This document shows, piece by piece, positions 38,285-62,003 of a stretch of DNA of 64,000 bases (positions are counted from its first letter, which is position 1; the number at the start of each line of letters is the position of its first letter). The notes under the pieces are model-generated. The model did no database searches and was not told the origin of the DNA. It saw nothing but the letters and a program-made list of their open reading frames with translations. This DNA is from Levilactobacillus fuyuanensis (lineage in GTDB: Bacteria > Bacillota > Bacilli > Lactobacillales > Lactobacillaceae). The stretch covers positions 62,001-126,000 of the forward strand of contig NZ_RHNZ01000005.1 of the NCBI RefSeq assembly GCF_003946395.1. The letters are read 5' to 3'. A program made the translations under genes and the position numbers.

Positions 38285-38356
38285 GCGTCCTTAGTGTAAT
38301 GGATAGCACGAGAGATTTCGGTCCTTTCGATCGGGGTTCGACTCCCCGGGGACGCA
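38285..38356 (+). tRNA. tRNA-Arg, anticodon TCG
   Basis: 72-base cloverleaf. Acceptor GCGTCCT/GGGACGC plus A73, D-stem GTGT/GCAC, anticodon stem AGAGA/CCTTT with loop TTTCGGT (anticodon TCG at positions 34-36), T-arm CGGGG-TTCGACT-CCCCG. The A-C mismatch at the top of the anticodon stem is unusual. CCA is not encoded. A terminator GACGCCA/TGGCGTC with T-tract follows at 38380-38410. Amino acid identity is from the anticodon. Confidence 0.88.
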
Positions 38357-38471: not shown

Positions 38472-39653
38472 TTATTGAAATTCTCGTGTGTCACCCTCAA
38501 CGGTAATTCGGTCACGACCGGCTTCCTTTGCGAGATAGAGGTAGTGGTCGACCCGTTTGAACCAATTGTCGAAGTCGGCATCGTCCGCTTGTAAGGCCGA
38601 GATACCGATGGAGACGGTCACAACTAGCTGCTTGCCATTTATTTTTACGGGATGCTGCTGTAGCGTGTCGCGAATCGATGTGACGATGTGCTGGGCGTCA
38701 GTGGGGGAAGTGTCTTTAAAGATGATAACGAATTCTTCGCCACCGTAGCGGAAAAGCTCGCCGTTATTCGTTTGGCGCGTCAGCTCTGCGTTGAAGTGTT
38801 GAGCCACGTGTTTGAGCACGGCATCACCAGTCAGGTGGCCATACTCGTCGTTGAAGTGTTTAAAATGGTCGATATCAAACATCGCCATGGTAATCGGTGT
38901 CGTGGGGTGCTGACGGTAAACGCCAAAGACCCCAACCGTGGTCGAATCAAAGTTGGCCCGGTTGCGGACACCGGTCAGTTCGTCGTAGTTAGCTTCCTGA
39001 TCCAACCGCTCGAAGTGGCTGATCACGCGGTTGACCCGCGTGACGAAGAAGCGAATGATCCACATGTAAATGATAAAGACCACGAGGACGTTGACTGTGT
39101 AGAAGAGCAGAAACGGCCGCACGGACCAGATGACCATACACCATGCAAGGCCGTATAGGAGTTGCAAGAGTAGAAAGCGCCACTCGGAATCCAACGCCAG
39201 TGCTTGATGGTGGCTGATATAGAGGATGACGCCAAACAAGGTAGCCGCTGCGATGGCAAAGACCCACCAGTGTTGCAGGCTGGCACCCAGATAGAGTGCC
39301 TGACCGTAGAAGAATAGCGGCATGGCCAAGTTGACCAAGGTCACCGCAAAATTATGCATGGCGTAGAGACTGTATAACAGAATCATTAATTGCGCAATGG
39401 CATAGCCCCAACTCAGGACATTACCACCATTCAGGACCCAGAAGGTTTGTCGGAGAATCACGACACTAGCGATGACAATGACGCCTTCCACTAGTTCCAA
39501 AATTACAGTGGTCGACCGTGACCGCTGGGCCGCCCGTTGTGAGAGGAGATAGGTCATTGCCATCATAATCGCAATGAGGCCAACGGTAATTAAAGCCATG
39601 ATGATTGATTTTATATTAAAGATATCTTGAAAAAAGTTTTCAAAGAGGTACAT
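38472..39653 (-). CDS. Membrane GGDEF diguanylate cyclase
   Basis: 393 aa. Residues 1 to about 205 hold six or seven membrane helices, probably a sensor. The C-terminal GGDEF domain begins ANYDELTGVRNRANFD and has FDIDHFKHFNDEYGHLTGD, the active-site loop RYGGEEF, and the closing VTVSIGISAL. All catalytic residues for making c-di-GMP from two GTP are present. The RxxD inhibitory site normally just before RYGGEEF is not conserved (TNNG), so product inhibition should be weak. No EAL, HD-GYP or PilZ protein is in the window. Confidence 0.9.
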   Translation of the reverse strand: MYLFENFFQDIFNIKSIIMALITVGLIAIMMAMTYLLSQRAAQRSRSTTVILELVEGVIVIASVVILRQTFWVLNGGNVLSWGYAIAQLMILLYSLYAMHNFAVTLVNLAMPLFFYGQALYLGASLQHWWVFAIAAATLFGVILYISHHQALALDSEWRFLLLQLLYGLAWCMVIWSVRPFLLFYTVNVLVVFIIYMWIIRFFVTRVNRVISHFERLDQEANYDELTGVRNRANFDSTTVGVFGVYRQHPTTPITMAMFDIDHFKHFNDEYGHLTGDAVLKHVAQHFNAELTRQTNNGELFRYGGEEFVIIFKDTSPTDAQHIVTSIRDTLQQHPVKINGKQLVVTVSIGISALQADDADFDNWFKRVDHYLYLAKEAGRDRITVEGDTREFQ

Positions 39654-39834: not shown

Positions 39835-39867
39835 TGGACATAATGTGTCCAAATGAGGTGCTATGCT
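39835..39867 (+). promoter_or_regulatory. Island promoter P1 with shared palindromic operator
   Basis: TGGACATAATGTGTCCA (39835-39851) followed 27 bases from its start by an extended -10, TGC-TATGCT (39862-39867). The palindrome covers the -35 position, which has no TTGACA-like box. The same arrangement appears at 40710-40742 and, inverted, at 44618-44664; the two outer sites are 16/17 identical. Confidence 0.65.
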
Positions 39868-39914
39868 ATCAATATAGCTTAACCGATAAAGCGTACTTAA
39901 AGGAGGCGTCGATT

Positions 39915-40112
39915 GTGAATCCAGTCTACGTGAAGACTTCGGATAGTATTCAGTTAGTGCTGACTATGTTGACCTTGTCAAAGCAACTTTCGGGGGAATT
40001 ACCGACTGCTACAGAATTTGAACAGAGCCTTATCCGGTTACATTTGGATCGGACGCCGGAACTTATGGTGGCCGTCACCCGAAATTTTCCGGAAATTGGT
40101 ATTGAAGCGTAA
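39915..40112 (+). CDS. Hypothetical 65-aa protein
   Basis: First gene of the accessory island. GTG at 39915 has AAAGGAGG six or seven bases upstream; a longer frame from 39834 would run through the operator and -10, so it is rejected. The product is mostly helical (SDSIQLVLTMLTLSKQLSG, ATEFEQSLIRLHLD) without signal or membrane segment. No family recognised. It is followed after 29 bases by the lipoprotein gene in the same direction. Confidence 0.6.
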   Translation: MNPVYVKTSDSIQLVLTMLTLSKQLSGELPTATEFEQSLIRLHLDRTPELMVAVTRNFPEIGIEA

Positions 40113-40141
40113 TTGCTTAAGACAGAACATAGGAGGAAGTA

Positions 40142-40702
40142 ATGATGAAAAAATTATTAGTTGTGATTAGCACTATATTGGCAGTGGGGAGCCTAGCTGC
40201 CTGCACTAGCCAGTCAAAGAGCCCATCGCACGTCACTAACGGGAGTAGCCACACGGTAAATAATTTGGGCCGACGAAATCAAAAAGTCGTGATTAAGAAT
40301 GCCACTTATGAATTGGACATTGCGAATTGGGGAATCCTGAAACCCGGACAGAATCCGCGTCAGGACGGTGATTCTTCACGGAATTATACGGGAAAGCAGC
40401 CAGTATTCATCTTGGACGTCGATTTTTGGCCAAAGAAGGCGTCGACCCAAGACAAGTGGGGGGAAAAGTATCAGAAATATGTTTCAGTCTCACAGCAGGG
40501 TCAACAGCTGAGTATTGCATCGTTCACTAAGGAAGATAACCAGAGTGGTTTTGATTATACGGACAATGAATCCGTTCAGGTTGCCGTGCCCTATATCATT
40601 AAGAGCGAGACGGCTCCAGTTAAGTTGACGGTTAAAAATCCGGCGGGTAAAGTCATCAAGACCATGGTTTATACCAAGCAAGTTTATCGTTCAAATTGGT
40701 AA
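40142..40702 (+). CDS. DUF5067-like surface lipoprotein
   Basis: 186 aa. Signal peptide with lipobox SLAAC (Cys at about residue 21), then a Ser/Asn linker and a beta-rich domain containing YELDIANW, KQPVFILDVDFWPKK and VSVSQQGQQLSIASF, which resembles the DUF5067 pattern of Gram-positive lipoproteins (a Q-G-x-x-L segment after a ydytN-like strand). AGGAGG precedes two adjacent ATG codons. No terminator is seen before the next promoter. Whether it works with the downstream WYL cassette is unclear. Confidence 0.72.
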   Translation: MMKKLLVVISTILAVGSLAACTSQSKSPSHVTNGSSHTVNNLGRRNQKVVIKNATYELDIANWGILKPGQNPRQDGDSSRNYTGKQPVFILDVDFWPKKASTQDKWGEKYQKYVSVSQQGQQLSIASFTKEDNQSGFDYTDNESVQVAVPYIIKSETAPVKLTVKNPAGKVIKTMVYTKQVYRSNW

Positions 40703-40709
40703 CAAATTT

Positions 40710-40742
40710 TAGTCATCATATGTCTTAATAGGGTGCTATACT
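40710..40742 (+). promoter_or_regulatory. Island promoter P2 with degenerate copy of the operator
   Basis: TAGTCATCATATGTCTT (40710-40726) matches the P1 palindrome at 11 of 17 positions. It lies at the same distance (27 bases) from the extended -10 TGC-TATACT (40737-40742). It drives the 417-aa protein, WYL and UDG-like genes. Confidence 0.55.
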
Positions 40743-40788
40743 CACTTTATAAAGTGGAGTCGCTCAGGGACAGTAAGGAGTGGATCAC

Positions 40789-42042
40789 GTGACAAAGCAG
40801 GGAATGCAAGCGTTGAATCGGTATATGCAAGCTAATAATTTGGGCGCAAATTTACTCGTTTATGAGTATAGTTCAGCTGATGAGATTGTCGTGGGTCAGG
40901 CTGAAACGTTGTTGTCCGCAACGGCCCGCCGGCTGACGGAGTCGCTGGGACGTTACCAGCTCTACGATGAACACGGTATCTGTTTTGTTGATGGAGGAGA
41001 TTTGGATAAGCTCAAGTCCGCATTGCGGCGAATGTTAGCGACAAACCATTTAGCACCAGTCACGTATGAAGTACCTAATCTAATGGTCATTAGCCAAATG
41101 ATTCAGGCCGCCAATCGCCAGGGCGTGACCATAACTGGTCGCCGCCGAGTTTGTCGAGATACTTGGCAGGTTCCCGATGATCGGCGCTTGATGGCGGTGC
41201 TTCGGGAACCCTTGGCGACACGGAGTGCCCAATTGATTCCTATTCAAAGGAAAGACGGTTCACAACTACTGGTTAATTTACAGCGCGAAGAAGTGCTGGT
41301 GCGTGATCAAACAATTGTGGGGCGAATAGGGCTTGACGATGTGTACTACGACTTACAAGGGCCGGATGGGTTTCAATTGGTGGCAGTGCCCGCTGAACAA
41401 CTCGGTATTGTCTTACTCTGTACTTTATACGGAATGCAGTCCCGGACGATTCGTCAGTTGTTCTTGTGGCCCGATTTATCACAGGAAGTGTTAGCGGCGG
41501 CCGACTTGATTTATGAACGGTGTGAGACCTCACTGCCCCGAGAGATGAAGTCGCTTCCCGATCTTGATACGCTGGCGGATGACCCAATCCAACCAGGGGA
41601 TGGCCTCAGTTATTGCTATCGGTTCTTTGATGGTCGTCGCAACGGTCAGACGTTGGGTGTGCCATTTGCAGCAAGTGATATTGTTGATGTTTTAAAGCGA
41701 ACGGCGCGTGGCGGGCTGACACCACGTCTTCGTCGGCAACAACGGTTGTCTGACTGGCTAGTGACAAGCGCTAATCAAATGGGTTGGCATCTCTATCGTC
41801 GACAACGCCGTCAAGTCAACGTTTGTGACATTGAGAACTTCAAAATTGAAAATGATGAAATTATAGATCTGAGTGCAGTGTCACGTGGGCCGGAGCGTGT
41901 CTACGTGACGCAAACCGTTTTTGAAATTCGCGATGAAAGTGGAAAGGTAGTGGCGCAAGATCTGCCATTCAATGATCTAGTCACGACCTTGCTGACGGCG
42001 GCAGTGAAGAATGATGCAAACTTCTTTGACCAATTCAAGTAA
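40789..42042 (+). CDS. Unknown 417-aa protein of the WYL cassette
   Basis: No family recognised. The chain is soluble, mixed alpha/beta and Arg-rich (ARRLTESLGRYQLYD, TGRRRVCRDTWQVPDDRRL, TPRLRRQQRLSDWLV, YRRQRRQVNVCD), which could fit nucleic-acid binding. No catalytic signature stands out. GTG at 40789 has AAGGAG eight bases upstream; the GTG nine bases earlier overlaps that site. It ends 28 bases before the WYL regulator start, so the two are cotranscribed. Composition is near the genome average, unlike the AT-rich gene that ends the cassette. Confidence 0.65.
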   Translation: MTKQGMQALNRYMQANNLGANLLVYEYSSADEIVVGQAETLLSATARRLTESLGRYQLYDEHGICFVDGGDLDKLKSALRRMLATNHLAPVTYEVPNLMVISQMIQAANRQGVTITGRRRVCRDTWQVPDDRRLMAVLREPLATRSAQLIPIQRKDGSQLLVNLQREEVLVRDQTIVGRIGLDDVYYDLQGPDGFQLVAVPAEQLGIVLLCTLYGMQSRTIRQLFLWPDLSQEVLAAADLIYERCETSLPREMKSLPDLDTLADDPIQPGDGLSYCYRFFDGRRNGQTLGVPFAASDIVDVLKRTARGGLTPRLRRQQRLSDWLVTSANQMGWHLYRRQRRQVNVCDIENFKIENDEIIDLSAVSRGPERVYVTQTVFEIRDESGKVVAQDLPFNDLVTTLLTAAVKNDANFFDQFK

Positions 42043-42070
42043 ATTAATACGGGAAATGGAGGATCAGGAA

Positions 42071-43015
42071 ATGACAGCGATGGCGCGTAACATGGATTTT
42101 ATGATACGGATGTTGAAGGGAGAAAAGTTAACGACTCAGGAGATGACGGCGGAAACTGGACGTTCTTCCCAAACAGTGAAACGCGATATGAGAGCTATTG
42201 GGTCAATGGTTGAGGAGCTTCCGGACTGTGAATTTCATCAAGAAATCGTTGGTATAGAAAACAAGCGCTTCTGGATTACAATAAATACGATGAGCTTTGA
42301 GGAAGTACTGGCATTGCTGAAAATCTTGATTGGCACGCGGTCACTAAATCAAGCTGAGATGACACAAGTGAAGGATCACTTGCTGAATTTGTTGTCGGAA
42401 AAGAAACAAAATCTTGCTAAGAAACTGATTACCACGACGGTCACGGCTTATACGCCAGTTAATGCAGGACAAGACTTGTTGCCCCGGCTTGCTGAATTCG
42501 CTGGTTATATTCAAAACAGGACGCCCATCAAGTTTACCTACAGCAGTAGTACTCAGGGGACAAATAAAGACGCGGGTTTACCAATGGGGTTAACGTTTGC
42601 CGATTTTTATTACTACGTGGTGATGTATAGCGAGAAAAATGATACAACCCATTTCTACCGATTGGATCGCTTCGGGGATGACGTGGTTCCAGATGTGGAT
42701 CAAAATAGTAATGTTCCACGTGCTAAGAAGCTAGATGAAGGTGAATCGCTGAATAAAACTTATTTGTTAAGTGGTGGCACCGTGGTTAATTACGAGTTCA
42801 AGTACTGGAATTTTCCTCAAACGGCGTTGGATCGATTACCCAAGTCGACATGCACGCCAAATAAGGACGGTAGTGTCACAATTAAGGGAGAAGCCTTTTC
42901 ACAAGGATTGGTCCTGTGGATACTGAGCCAAGGCTCCAATATTCAAGTGATTAGGCCAAAATCTCTGGTTGATGAGGTTCAGGAAGAGATTAAGAAGATG
43001 GCGGCGCTGTATTGA
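42071..43015 (+). CDS. WYL-domain transcriptional regulator
   Basis: 314 aa. N-terminal helix-turn-helix (residues about 9-45: MIRMLKGEKLTTQEMTAETGRSSQTVKRDMRAIGS), then a central WYL domain with PIKFTYSSSTQG, LPMGLTFADFYYYVVMYS and THFYRLDRFGDDV, and a C-terminal WCX-like extension. WYL proteins sense nucleic-acid or nucleotide ligands and often control antiphage operons (BrxR, CapW). ATG at 42071 has GGAGG eight bases upstream. It is the obvious candidate to bind the palindromes at P1, P2 and P3. The bases 43016-43139 hold a strong ribosome-binding site followed by only a very short frame. Confidence 0.85.
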   Translation: MTAMARNMDFMIRMLKGEKLTTQEMTAETGRSSQTVKRDMRAIGSMVEELPDCEFHQEIVGIENKRFWITINTMSFEEVLALLKILIGTRSLNQAEMTQVKDHLLNLLSEKKQNLAKKLITTTVTAYTPVNAGQDLLPRLAEFAGYIQNRTPIKFTYSSSTQGTNKDAGLPMGLTFADFYYYVVMYSEKNDTTHFYRLDRFGDDVVPDVDQNSNVPRAKKLDEGESLNKTYLLSGGTVVNYEFKYWNFPQTALDRLPKSTCTPNKDGSVTIKGEAFSQGLVLWILSQGSNIQVIRPKSLVDEVQEEIKKMAALY

Positions 43016-43139
43016 TAGAAACGGATAAGTTTAGGAGGTGGTTATTGCTGATTTCAAGAAAGTGGTCGGCAAGAATAAATGATTATAAAAGTTTCAAGTT
43101 GTCCGTTACTTATTTTTCAATATAGAAGGAGCTGCGCTT

Positions 43140-44177
43140 ATGCCAACTAATGGTGAAGTATTAAATGGATTGGAAGGGGTTGAAACAGGCTTTTTCATTC
43201 CAGGTAGTAAAGATAAGTCAGGAAATCCAATTGAGGTAAAGTTAAAGTATATGAGCTCAATTATTGCATTTAAAAAGCTGCCGACTAATGATGCAATTAA
43301 AGTGGCAGTTGCTCATAATGAAAAAGTGGATGGCGTAACGCCAACTAATATTGAGAAGTCTATTGATATCGACTTAAGCGTAGATGACACAATTTTTACC
43401 GATAAGAGCCAGAGAGACCAACCATTTAATTCAGACTACATGTTCGTTGGGTTAAATATTGCAGCTCGTAAAAAGGAACCTGACGCTGATGGTGCTTGGG
43501 GCCAGTTCCATGACATGGAGTTTAAAACGCCTACATATAAATTTGCTTTTATGACGAATGACAAACGCTTCCGGGGATGTTATATCACTGATATTTTGAA
43601 GAATACCGTGGATAGCAGTTCGGCAAATATTAGCGATGATTACTTTGTGGATATGGAGGAGAAACAGCCTGGAATGTTCCTTGACGAGAGCGATGAAAAT
43701 GTTAAGAAACTTGCAGTCAAAGGTTATCCTAAATACGTAAAGCGGTATCGATCGGAATTGGTAAAGAATGCAGACAGCGTTGAAACGGTTGTTGAGGATG
43801 GTAAAGTCATTAGCAGATATACCCGAGATCTCCGAAATGTTGGCGCTGATACTTTTATCGAGAGTTCCGAGGACTATGAAGCCGTAGTCAGAGAGAATCA
43901 ACAAAAGTATCGTAGAAGTGCCGAATTATTTATCCAAGAGTACCAGATTATCCAACCGAAACATCTGATTGTGTTAGGTAAAAAAGCACAACAGGTTGTT
44001 CAAAACATGCGAGCCGATGGGCTTTTTGAAAATAATCCGGAAGTTGCCAGATTGGCGGATACCTTGATTGAAGCACAACATTACAGCAGACAAGGCAAAA
44101 AAACTTCCACGTTAGATTATATGAATTATCTGCAAACGTTACTGAAGAAAACGGATGTCGATGCAGTGAACGAATAG
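43140..44177 (+). CDS. Uracil-DNA-glycosylase-superfamily-like protein
   Basis: 345 aa, AT-rich compared with its neighbours. After about 95 N-terminal residues the chain follows the UDG fold: DYMFVGLNIAARKK (motif 1), a W..FHDMEF segment, FRGCYITDILKN, and near the C-terminus IQPKHLIVLGKKAQQVV and EAQHYSRQG (the LGxxA and HPS-like motif 2). The usual GQDP and HPSP residues are replaced, so base excision is not certain; the fold may serve nucleotide or DNA recognition. GAAGGAG precedes the ATG. Ends the cassette at a strong terminator. Confidence 0.5.
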   Translation: MPTNGEVLNGLEGVETGFFIPGSKDKSGNPIEVKLKYMSSIIAFKKLPTNDAIKVAVAHNEKVDGVTPTNIEKSIDIDLSVDDTIFTDKSQRDQPFNSDYMFVGLNIAARKKEPDADGAWGQFHDMEFKTPTYKFAFMTNDKRFRGCYITDILKNTVDSSSANISDDYFVDMEEKQPGMFLDESDENVKKLAVKGYPKYVKRYRSELVKNADSVETVVEDGKVISRYTRDLRNVGADTFIESSEDYEAVVRENQQKYRRSAELFIQEYQIIQPKHLIVLGKKAQQVVQNMRADGLFENNPEVARLADTLIEAQHYSRQGKKTSTLDYMNYLQTLLKKTDVDAVNE

Positions 44178-44210
44178 ATTAGTTGCTGATAAGTACGATA
44201 ATTTTATAGG

Positions 44211-44251
44211 AGCCAGATGATGCGTGTTGGTTATGCATCATCTGGCTCTTT
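44211..44251 (+). terminator. Terminator of the WYL cassette
   Basis: Thirteen-base perfect stem AGCCAGATGATGC/GCATCATCTGGCT with T-rich tail. Confidence 0.85.
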
Positions 44252-44276
44252 CATAATGGATATTATCTTAGGCTTA

Positions 44277-44307
44277 CAAAACCGCCATAGGATTGGCTAT
44301 GGCGGTT
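44277..44307 (-). terminator. Terminator of the 54-aa gene
   Basis: Stem AACCGCCATAG/CTATGGCGGTT; short T-tract on the minus strand. Confidence 0.7.
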
Positions 44308-44364
44308 AGCAAGGGTTCTACTTGTTTTCGTTTTTTATCTATTATCAATAAACATCCTTATAGA

Positions 44365-44529
44365 TTATTGAATATCAAGAATTTCCCAATCAACATCGTC
44401 AACGCCTTGCTCTTTTTGAAGTTTATCGACTTCTTCAAATAAATCAGACATATCTTCAATATTCAAAATTTTGTAGTCACTTGTAGTTCCGTTATCAGTA
44501 ATATGAGTCGTCGTAATCTTAACTTTCAT
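44365..44529 (-). CDS. Acidic 54-aa protein facing the WYL cassette
   Basis: A gene below usual size limits but with GGAGGAG seven to ten bases before its ATG, a promoter and a terminator. The product is very acidic: 14 Asp/Glu against 5 Lys, with a run such as EDMSDLFEEVDK and the end GVDDVDWEILDIQ. It has no membrane segment or cysteine. It shares its operator with the convergent cassette. Small acidic proteins can mimic DNA, as Ugi does for uracil-DNA glycosylase; that role is only a hypothesis here. Confidence 0.65.
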   Translation of the reverse strand: MKVKITTTHITDNGTTSDYKILNIEDMSDLFEEVDKLQKEQGVDDVDWEILDIQ

Positions 44530-44617
44530 CGTAATAAACTCCTCCAGTATAGTCTCAATTTTTTTGAGTTCATTTGTTATCTGTTTGACTCCTAGCTTAG
44601 TTTTGAAAAGGATTACC

Positions 44618-44664
44618 GATCAATCAAGTAAAGTATAGCATTAGAGATGGACACATTATGTCTA
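44618..44664 (-). promoter_or_regulatory. Island promoter P3 with inverted operator copy
   Basis: TGGACACATTATGTCTA on the plus strand (44648-44664) is the reverse complement of the P1 palindrome with one change. On the minus strand it is followed by extended -10 TGC-TATACT at the same 16-base distance from TGTCC, leading to the 54-aa gene. Confidence 0.65.
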
Positions 44665-44784: not shown

Positions 44785-45180
44785 TCAGGCCTCTAATTTA
44801 GCACGCAAAGCATCGGTCAATGTTGCCGAAAAATTGATTTGAGCGGCAACCCCTAGATCATTGAGATATTTTGGAATCGTCAAAGTTTTTTTGATACTCC
44901 GGTTTTCTTCCCGTTCGCGGGCAATTCGTGTGTCGACTTCGATGGGGACAATCAATTGTTGTGCTGTGTGGGAAATGCTAATTGGGTCTGACGGTTGGGG
45001 TAGGTGTTCCTGAGTATCCTCAGCGGTGAGCAAATAGCCGGTTAATGCGTCACTAGCCATGTGCAGGGCGTCTGAAATATTCTCGCCGAAGGTTGCGGCA
45101 TTGGGTGCCAAATCGGGAAAGGTAACTTCCACCTGCCCGTTTGAATTTTGAGAAAAGAGTGCAGCATATAGGTATTTCAT
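44785..45180 (-). CDS. hicB: HicB-family antitoxin
   Basis: 131 aa. N-terminal partly degraded RNase-H-like HicB domain (KYLYAALFSQNSNGQVEVTFPDLAPNAATFGENISDALHMASDALTGYL, the typical GF-x-V-x-FPDL-x-GA-x-T-x-G pattern) and a C-terminal DNA-binding helix-strand part (KKTLTIPKYLNDLGVAAQINFSATLTDAL). It binds and blocks HicA and represses its own promoter. ATG at 45180 has GGAGG eight bases upstream. It follows hicA after 46 bases. Confidence 0.85.
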   Translation of the reverse strand: MKYLYAALFSQNSNGQVEVTFPDLAPNAATFGENISDALHMASDALTGYLLTAEDTQEHLPQPSDPISISHTAQQLIVPIEVDTRIAREREENRSIKKTLTIPKYLNDLGVAAQINFSATLTDALRAKLEA

Positions 45181-45226
45181 GTGTGGGACCTCCAATTGTG
45201 TGGTTAACTCGTTCGGTTATTGTAGC

Positions 45227-45415
45227 TTACTTTAGTCCAGCCTGTTTCAAAATGCTGTTGAGGGTGCCTTTAGGAATATCTTTTCGAGGATGAGGAACGG
45301 TCACAATGCCAGGCTTGACCGGATGCTTGAAGTGACGATGGTCACCGGTAACTCTGGCAAGGTACCAGCCGTCTTTTTGAAGTATTTTGATGATTTCACG
45401 GGAATCGATAGGGAT
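45227..45415 (-). CDS. hicA: HicA-family mRNA interferase, no standard start codon
   Basis: 62 codons encode a complete HicA double-stranded-RNA-binding fold: PIDSREIIKILQKDGWYLAR, catalytic His in TGDHRHFKHP, VTVPHPRKDIPKGTLNSILKQAGLK. However, the frame opens with ATC-CCT-ATC, where relatives usually have ATG-CCT-ATG, and a TAA stands three codons upstream. An AGAGGAA ribosome-binding sequence lies just before the ATC, and an extended -10 TGC-TATACT (45440-45435) puts the transcript start about 13 bases upstream. Either ATC is used as start or the toxin is silent. Confidence 0.75.
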   Translation of the reverse strand: MPIDSREIIKILQKDGWYLARVTGDHRHFKHPVKPGIVTVPHPRKDIPKGTLNSILKQAGLK

Positions 45416-45492
45416 TTCCTCTTAGAATAGGTTGAGTATAGCACGTGTTAAGTAACGATAACTGGGCTTCTCATCTTTTTTTAATTTACCCA

Positions 45493-61882: not shown

Positions 61883-62003
61883 AGAATACGTTGGTTAGTC
61901 AAGCCTAGGTTGTGTGGATTATGAAATGGTCTACTGATTAATCGGCTTGCTGATAGTATGACATTAATAAAATAAACGAAACGACAATTAGGAGGAATGA
62001 CCG

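Follow-up and report, generated by a model that had tools for sequence, protein, structure and literature searches.

A shared predicted promoter type connects a WYL regulator, a diverged UDG-superfamily protein and a protein of a new family in lactobacilli

Introduction

Transcription regulators with a WYL domain include activators that act from an unusual position. PafBC is placed at -26, where it allows sigma-A polymerase to start transcription without the normal -35 contact once single-stranded DNA (ssDNA) is held in its WYL domains, and the same literature mentions WYL repressors linked to immune systems (PMC11804915, PMC6789036). The LexA/RecA-independent damage promoters of mycobacteria follow the consensus tTGTCRgtg, 8 nt, TannnT (PMC5656591), which the PafBC motif closely resembles (PMC8223512). 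The homodimer SiwR depends on the -26 region and recognises a 19-bp palindrome located between the -35 and -10 positions (PMC10693628), and DriD is a homodimeric, ssDNA-activated regulator (PMC12340889). In the uracil-DNA glycosylase (UDG) superfamily, Brig1 carries E147 at the base-reading position, Brig3 has D127 in what we read as the matching list of pocket residues, with D127N used as the inactive form (PMC11078745, PMC13160076), and a double mutant of Escherichia coli UDG that includes N123D acts on cytosine and discriminates methylcytosine (PMC3989344). Here we describe a six-gene cassette of Levilactobacillus fuyuanensis (assembly GCF_003946395.1, contig NZ_RHNZ01000005.1), located at 39835-44664 of a window of 64,000 nucleotides (contig positions 62,001 to 126,000), by which we mean the whole stretch analysed. 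It encodes a 65-residue protein (P65), a lipoprotein, a 417-residue protein (U417), a WYL regulator, a 345-residue UDG-like protein (UDGL) and, facing them, a 54-residue acidic protein (P54). The element that unites these genes is their promoter, which had gone unnoticed in the original prediction made from the letters of the window.

Results

One promoter type precedes the cassette genes

P65 and P54 share one predicted promoter type, GACA-N5-TGTC-N12-TAnnnT, which lacks a -35 box; U417 has it with one mismatch, and the set of genes that it accompanies recurs across lactobacilli. The P65 promoter contains the perfect palindrome TGGACA-N5-TGTCCA and the P54 promoter the same palindrome with a single mismatch, followed in both cases by TGCTATRCT. 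The exact pattern TGTC-N9-TGCTATRCT was found three times in the whole 2.72 Mb source genome (G000; other genomes carry G numbers and fetched stretches L numbers), all in the cassette, before P65, U417 and P54. When up to one mismatch was allowed, six sites were detected in this genome against two for the reversed pattern. Over 55 stretches, six exact copies were located upstream of module genes and one elsewhere, namely that of P54, compared to none for the reversed pattern. Allowing one mismatch at most, the search recovered ten foreign sites before P65, WYL, UDGL or U417 genes of other genomes, and the half-site GACA, which was no part of the pattern that located them, lies 5 nt upstream of the right half in nine of the ten. 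Deviating left halves are GACG in L115 and GTCA in the U417 promoter of the window. Likeness to a -35 box at a distance of 15-19 nt did not exceed three of six matches at any of the 12 sites written out, and a standard sigma-70 scan does not report the three promoters of the window.

The generalised pattern GACA-N5-TGTC-N12-TAnnnT was then counted over both strands of the 55 stretches (1.57 Mb), taking as upstream any copy within 250 bp of a P65, U417, WYL or UDGL gene. In total, 25 upstream copies were observed against 0.26 expected from the rest of the stretches, with 11 copies elsewhere, and five control patterns with other spacers or letters gave no upstream match in the same stretches. 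The 25 copies, one of which is the window's own, span 17 genomes of four genera, some of them closely related; in the relatives the promoter also precedes WYL and UDGL genes.

Some of the 11 other copies precede further genes, including P54, a 344-aa gene in G237, a gene for a secreted protein in G176 and small genes of Companilactobacillus. The inverted repeat, with a -10-like hexamer at roughly the usual spacing, was seen before other genes at L041:6515, L046:7027, L047:8722, L053:1761, L070:7158 and L162:3543. The genes behind these sites encode an amidotransferase-like protein (recognised by eye), look-alike proteins of 102 and 226 aa, a 344-aa protein and a secreted protein, all of which are possible further members of the regulon.

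Two DNA forms of the pattern were also run against a virus collection, from which they fetched 13 and 32 stretches, compared to none for a control of the first form. A WYL gene is present in three of these 45 stretches (E 1e-46 to 2e-47), each time with the site about 25 bp ahead of it and correctly oriented (L175:3050-4062, L177:11939-12951 and L194:237-1245). These genes, fetched by a DNA pattern alone, point independently to a connection of the site with this type of WYL regulator. L175 and L177 appear, by eye, to be copies of one element with serine recombinases. An alternative role of the two palindromes of the cassette as ends of a mobile element was dropped, because the same sites occur at -26 of promoters in other genomes.

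The genes recur together in variable arrangements

Genome counts given here include the source genome. Searching with the single proteins identified UDGL in 19 of 251 Lactobacillaceae genomes and U417 in seven; a profile of U417 extended this to 18 of 397. Outside the Lactobacillaceae, UDGL profiles matched one genome beyond the source among the 348 of a class sample, and a search that included short forms matched only the source genome among the 398 of a phylum sample. Four plasmid records carry a short relative of UDGL, one behind a split WYL gene, one behind restriction-modification genes and one before a candidate defence pair, while long UDGL and U417 had no match among plasmids. No relative of UDGL was found in phage records or virus contigs, and none of U417 in virus contigs, the one of these two collections that was searched with it.

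Neighbourhoods were fetched for all 18 U417 genomes and all 19 UDGL genomes. At a distance of up to 3 kb, U417 has a WYL neighbour in 13 of the 18 and UDGL has one in 10 of the 19; U417 has a UDGL neighbour at that distance in eight of the 18, and all three families are together in seven (G000, G084, G135, G624, G672, G682 and G715). Therefore, the objection that these genes might never co-occur outside the window fails. U417 is without a WYL neighbour in G015, G234 (a fragment), G093, G166 and G640 (broken), and UDGL in G182, G229, G084, G214 (at a contig end), G111, G135, G117, G076 and G029, although in G084 and G135 a WYL gene adjoins a second, short UDGL instead. Gene order and strands differ between genomes, and both U417 and UDGL also occur alone. 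Conversely, 17 WYL matches in the 251 genomes reached E <= 1e-50, and 11 of them are accompanied by UDGL or U417 at no more than 3 kb; weaker matches were inspected in a few cases.

Decayed copies were observed at L114:6612-7871, L116:6562-6873, L102:7099-7885 and L056:7863-8801, where U417 is split or truncated (G640 and G234) or the WYL gene is split (a plasmid of L. paracasei, and C. hulinensis). The tRNA-Arg(tcg) gene at 38285-38356 of the window borders a chromosomal site common to five genomes (also L063, L064, L037 and L169). This site is a hot spot, at which different subsets of the module are found.

UDGL is a probable, diverged member of the UDG superfamily

The UDG-like nature originally proposed for the 345-aa protein is supported by its relatives. 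UDGL of the window reaches 15.1 bits against the Pfam UDG model PF03167 (cut-off 24.3, E 0.025), and 12 of 27 family members match this model at E <= 0.1, the best at 8.5e-6. Matches of the family to the UdgX, family-4 and Brig1 models are weak (E 0.004-0.08), that to Brig1 (NF047634) being confined to one of the 27 members at E 0.033; PADLOC gave one match each to C3a59 (E 5.9e-5) and Csm2 (0.03) among the same 27. A profile of the short forms found only the UDG of S. tokodaii among PDB sequences (E 0.2), and one short sequence searched alone against them had no match. Structural modelling, which had been recommended along with the original prediction, gave a fair model of UDGL with a predicted local distance difference test score (pLDDT) of 76.5 and a predicted template modelling score of 0.79. 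In Foldseek this model found UdgX as its best PDB match, with SMUG1 and UNG in the first ten (E 0.2-0.7); against a virus-structure library nothing fell under E 0.17, with some UDGs among the weak matches. Taken together, these matches and the motifs described below support the kinship of UDGL with the superfamily.

Conservation was counted over 35 distinct members. All of them keep N106 and F123 (35/35 each), and H314 (33/33) and D151 (34/34) are likewise constant among members in which the column is present, and the order of motif 1 Asn, stacking Phe and motif 2 His is kept. We take these three residues to have the roles that they have in UDGs generally. Motif 1 is GLN in UDGL, and short forms read VGxNPGN or VGxNQGN; the long forms measure 264-379 aa and the short forms 194-241 aa, with two members truncated. 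D151 in the motif ITD corresponds, matched by motif order only, to ITN82 of the S. tokodaii enzyme, placing an Asp at the base-reading position where uracil enzymes have Asn. Because this residue is acidic, UDGL probably removes a base other than plain uracil, and base removal by this predicted glycosylase is plausible. The source genome encodes two other PF03167 proteins above the cut-off.

The WYL regulator

The regulator matches both Pfam WYL and WCX above their cut-offs and HTH_11 below its cut-off, and in PADLOC it matches WYL models (best 1.8e-17) and, weakly, the Cas3c and Aga models. The RxxR motif, which was equated with R204/R207 of SiwR by motif rather than by alignment, is kept in 39 of the 42 WYL proteins in which the region is present (46 in all). 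By likeness to PafBC and SiwR, we infer that the protein may be an ssDNA-dependent activator. One further, distant WYL protein with 28% identity is encoded in the source genome. In Companilactobacillus, tandem WYL genes stand beside UDGL (L042:7933-9776 and L165-L168), and three of these copies (L042, L166 and L167) do not keep the RxxR pair, which recalls the division of labour between PafB and PafC.

U417 and the small proteins

Searches with U417 returned no match in PADLOC, PHROGs or NCBIfam and two Pfam matches below the cut-off (E 0.04 and 0.09), as expected from its earlier description as a protein without a known family. Since the five Pfam families found with 22 members each match just one of them (E 0.01-0.09), U417 is, on its sequence, a protein of a new family. 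Alignment of the first half of its profile to the second (hhalign E 9e-4, probability 23%) is merely suggestive of an internal duplication, and its single-sequence AlphaFold model was uninformative (pLDDT 35.5). PDB sequence searches with profiles of cassette proteins gave one chance match (A1) and three chance matches (A2).

In G093 and G166, two genomes of one genus, U417 has an N-terminal extension to which P65 bears a weak resemblance. In a shuffle test the extension of G093 scored above all 2000 shuffles and that of G166 below two of its 1000, which is no more than suggestive of a fusion of P65 to the N-terminus of U417. Homologues of P65 lie directly upstream of module genes in four other genomes of the genus (L. 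hammesii, G650, G672 and G682). The lipoprotein scores 24.8 bits against DUF5067 (cut-off 27) and had no convincing homologue at other loci, with one blastp match at E 0.002 in one search and none in another. P54 was not found in the 34 other genomes among the 35 of the genus that were searched, nor in phage or plasmid records.

Layout of the cassette

All genes named in the original prediction are present (Table 1), and its outer coordinates coincide with the outer ends of the operator palindromes at 39835-39851 and 44648-44664. P65, lipoprotein, U417, WYL and UDGL follow one another on the plus strand, as an operon would, with P54 facing them on the minus strand; the occurrence of U417 and UDGL alone elsewhere qualifies the operon as a general arrangement. 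The starts of U417 and WYL were both chosen by eye: a GTG behind AAGGAG gives U417 417 aa, and WYL begins at 42071 behind the Shine-Dalgarno sequence GGAGG. Gene calling alternatively places the start of U417 at 40780 (420 aa) and that of WYL at 42011 or 42059.

The description of the cassette as bounded by terminators finds support at the 3' ends of UDGL and P54. Two strong hairpins sit where UDGL and P54 converge, one behind UDGL (-31.8 kcal/mol, z -7.8) and one behind P54 on the strand of the latter (z -5.8), and are probable terminators; each is trailed by only 3-4 U, and a simple terminator scan, which reported three sites in total against 6.4 expected, listed neither.

Table 1 Predicted features of the cassette, in window coordinates
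Feature	Position	Strand	Description
Promoter 1	39835..39867	+	palindrome TGGACATAATGTGTCCA (39835-39851), then extended -10 TGCTATGCT; precedes P65 and the lipoprotein gene
P65	39915..40112	+	small protein, 65 aa, GTG start
Lipoprotein	40142..40702	+	186 aa; weak DUF5067 match
Promoter 2	40712..40742	+	upstream of U417; GTCA-N5-TGTC-N9-TGCTATACT; left half with one mismatch
U417	40789..42042	+	417 aa, without known family
WYL regulator	42071..43015	+	HTH-WYL-WCX; RxxR of the WYL domain kept (YRLDRF)
UDGL	43140..44177	+	UDG-superfamily protein; VGLN106, F123, ITD151, H314-Y-S
Hairpin 3' of UDGL	44208..44250	+	probable terminator
Hairpin 3' of P54	44280..44307	-	probable terminator
P54	44365..44529	-	acidic protein, isoelectric point 4.1
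Promoter 3	44632..44664	-	upstream of P54; TAGACATAATGTGTCCA, then TGCTATACT

The GC content of UDGL (0.395) and P54 (0.315) compares with 0.485 for the window. On the left, the cassette is flanked by the tRNA-Arg gene and then a GGDEF (diguanylate cyclase) gene, which lies between the two at 38472-39653 and was not seen in the L. hammesii stretch. On the right are a HicB-like antitoxin gene (44785-45420, minus strand; just below the Pfam cut-off), whose adjoining stretch is HicA-like by eye, and a gene recognised by eye as a brnQ-type transporter gene.

Restriction and candidate defence genes beside the module at selected loci

Ten neighbouring proteins, picked by eye, were scanned with PADLOC, of which seven matched and three did not; the five loci described here were likewise chosen by eye, with no control set. 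The U417-UDGL pair of G135 adjoins genes for two D12 methyltransferases and a type II restriction enzyme. A GmrSD-type gene is next to U417-UDGL in G624 and another next to the U417 fragment in G234, both above the cut-off for Pfam GmrSD_N and matching HEC-05 in PADLOC. These three chromosomal loci represent one site in related genomes (L054:25-6002, L106:10550-14347 and L116:6562-8723), at which the type II restriction set or the GmrSD-type gene is divergent from U417. On a Lactococcus plasmid, UDGL is followed by the PADLOC candidates PDC-M09 A and B (L105:2027-9555), and on a Liquorilactobacillus plasmid a UDGL fragment lies behind MvaI/BcnI-type restriction genes. The Lactococcus plasmid also has predicted macrolide-resistance genes. 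No PADLOC model matches UDGL or U417 of the window.

Discussion

We give somewhat better than even credence to the proposal that the cassette is a small inducible regulon, in which a WYL activator resembling PafBC and SiwR, loaded by ssDNA, switches on a base-excision module. The WYL protein would bind the inverted repeat as a dimer, and its WYL domain would take up ssDNA from DNA damage, from stalled forks or from phage or plasmid DNA on entry. The loaded protein would then recruit sigma-A polymerase to the cassette promoters, as PafBC does and SiwR may do; regulation mediated by the WYL protein in this manner is likely. Activation rather than repression is suggested because the operator is at -26 of promoters without a -35 box. 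Among the induced products, UDGL would be the effector, a DNA glycosylase that removes probably a cytosine derivative or damaged base and not plain uracil, and the resulting abasic sites would bring about the destruction of foreign DNA or, with lower probability, its repair counterpart in the host. Partners in the module would be U417 and P65, and P54 may be an acidic inhibitor of the glycosylase, of the Ugi or p56 kind. The defence or DNA-damage response suggested in the original prediction is favoured by the promoter geometry and by the restriction or candidate defence genes at the five loci chosen by eye, and between the two we tentatively favour defence over repair.

Several observations weigh against this proposal. 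TGTC at a fixed spacing is a short match, and therefore the resemblance to the mycobacterial promoter could have arisen by convergence. RxxR may be common to WYL domains in general. Six of the 17 closest WYL genes (G185, G218, G211, G175, G193 and G125) are without a module partner over the 14 kb retrieved, and the other 42 of the 45 stretches fetched from the virus collection by the pattern had no match to module profiles and may be chance. As for UDGL, its Foldseek matches to UDGs are weak (E 0.2-1.8), and the profile-profile comparison that had been recommended, carried out with hhalign against two local UDG families, was not significant. By eye, an ordinary PF03167 family encoded in these genomes also seems to have Asp at the equivalent place, and therefore the Asp of UDGL is no proof of a cytosine substrate. 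Finally, among the collections searched, P54 occurs only in this cassette.

A sharper form of the same proposal, an antiphage module of the Brig kind, falls somewhat short of an even chance in our estimation. Here UDGL would remove a modified base borne by phage, the WYL protein would sense infection, and U417 would be a helper, comparable to the arrangement of Brig3/BapA. In its favour are the acidic base-reading residue shared with Brig1 and Brig3 in a UDG relative, the patchy distribution, the low GC of UDGL and P54, and the immediate proximity of restriction or candidate defence genes at five loci. However, those loci were selected by eye and uncontrolled, three of them being one chromosomal site, UDGL and U417 of the window lack a PADLOC model, the Brig1 model gives only one match (E 0.033) among the 27 members, and C3a59 and Csm2 are single matches. 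We know of no phage with a suitable modified base for these hosts. The most fully specified version of the proposal, an ssDNA-triggered base-excision immune module with a WYL activator working by sigma adaptation, a glycosylase against cytosine-type foreign bases, U417 as its partner and P54 as a brake, is doubtful when taken as a whole.

Accessory DNA repair, in which the cassette would serve lactobacilli as a damage regulon independent of RecA, with an enzyme that excises a deaminated, oxidised or alkylated base, is unlikely. The promoter geometry is that of the mycobacterial damage regulon and the chromosomal site is common to five genomes, whereas less than a tenth of genomes (19/251) have UDGL, the source genome already has two other PF03167 proteins above the cut-off, and defence genes are found beside the module at five loci. 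Rather improbable is a toxin-antidote pair, with induced UDGL harming host DNA, P54 or U417 as the antidote and the WYL protein as a silencing repressor: several genomes have UDGL with no WYL, U417 or P54 nearby, P54 is not conserved, and promoters without a -35 box suggest activation, against which stand the small acidic P54 facing UDGL behind the same promoter and the association of the WYL proteins BrxR and CapW with immune operons. That unrelated genes with a common WYL-type promoter merely drift together at the tRNA-Arg integration hot spot is very improbable despite the different subsets there in five genomes and the U417 and UDGL genes that stand alone, as the three families also cluster elsewhere, in other genera as well as at other sites, where their order is shuffled and this promoter is kept.

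The inducible regulon proposed here would tie an orphan WYL regulator, a diverged DNA glycosylase and a nameless protein family together by one searchable DNA signature. Should the promoter function like its mycobacterial counterpart, sigma adaptation through WYL activators would extend beyond Actinobacteria, and the signature would be a direct route to such regulons and their effectors; the operator would also mark WYL genes on recombinase-bearing elements in virus-collection contigs. UDGL itself allows a test of whether a relative of the UDGs can read cytosine derivatives. We did not find the module described in the literature searched, whose coverage of subscription journals is poor, and we know of no other PafBC-type promoter regulon, as this one would be, from outside Actinobacteria.

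Compared to known systems, UDGL shares with Brig1 and Brig3/BapA the superfamily and the acidic base-reading residue, and Brig3, like UDGL, is in an operon with a partner. Unlike the Brig proteins, UDGL of the window misses the Brig1 model, Brig3 having no model for comparison; its motif 1 is GLN (GxNPG in short forms), its partner U417 is of no known family, and its function is predicted only. BrxR and CapW, with which the regulator had originally been compared, are repressors whose genes lie in small variable operons, as the WYL gene does here, and the comparison proved less apt than that with the activators PafBC and SiwR, given an operator position and a missing -35 box that point to activation. 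With PafBC, the regulator has in common the HTH-WYL-WCX architecture and the RxxR of the WYL domain, and the geometry of the cassette promoter (TGTC, 12 nt, TAnnnT, no -35 box) equals that of the mycobacterial RecA-independent promoter. The differences are that cassette loci mostly have one WYL protein and a palindromic site, which is non-palindromic in PafBC; that the PafBC regulon is reported to exceed 150 genes, compared to three promoters by the exact pattern in the cassette genome; and that PafBC belongs to Actinobacteria and the cassette, described here from its sequence, to Bacillota. SiwR and DriD act on other targets, DinB/YfiT-like for SiwR and didA and others for DriD, yet these homodimeric WYL activators have a palindromic site and a small regulon beside the regulator, as in the cassette, and the -26 region that SiwR needs is the position of the cassette operator.

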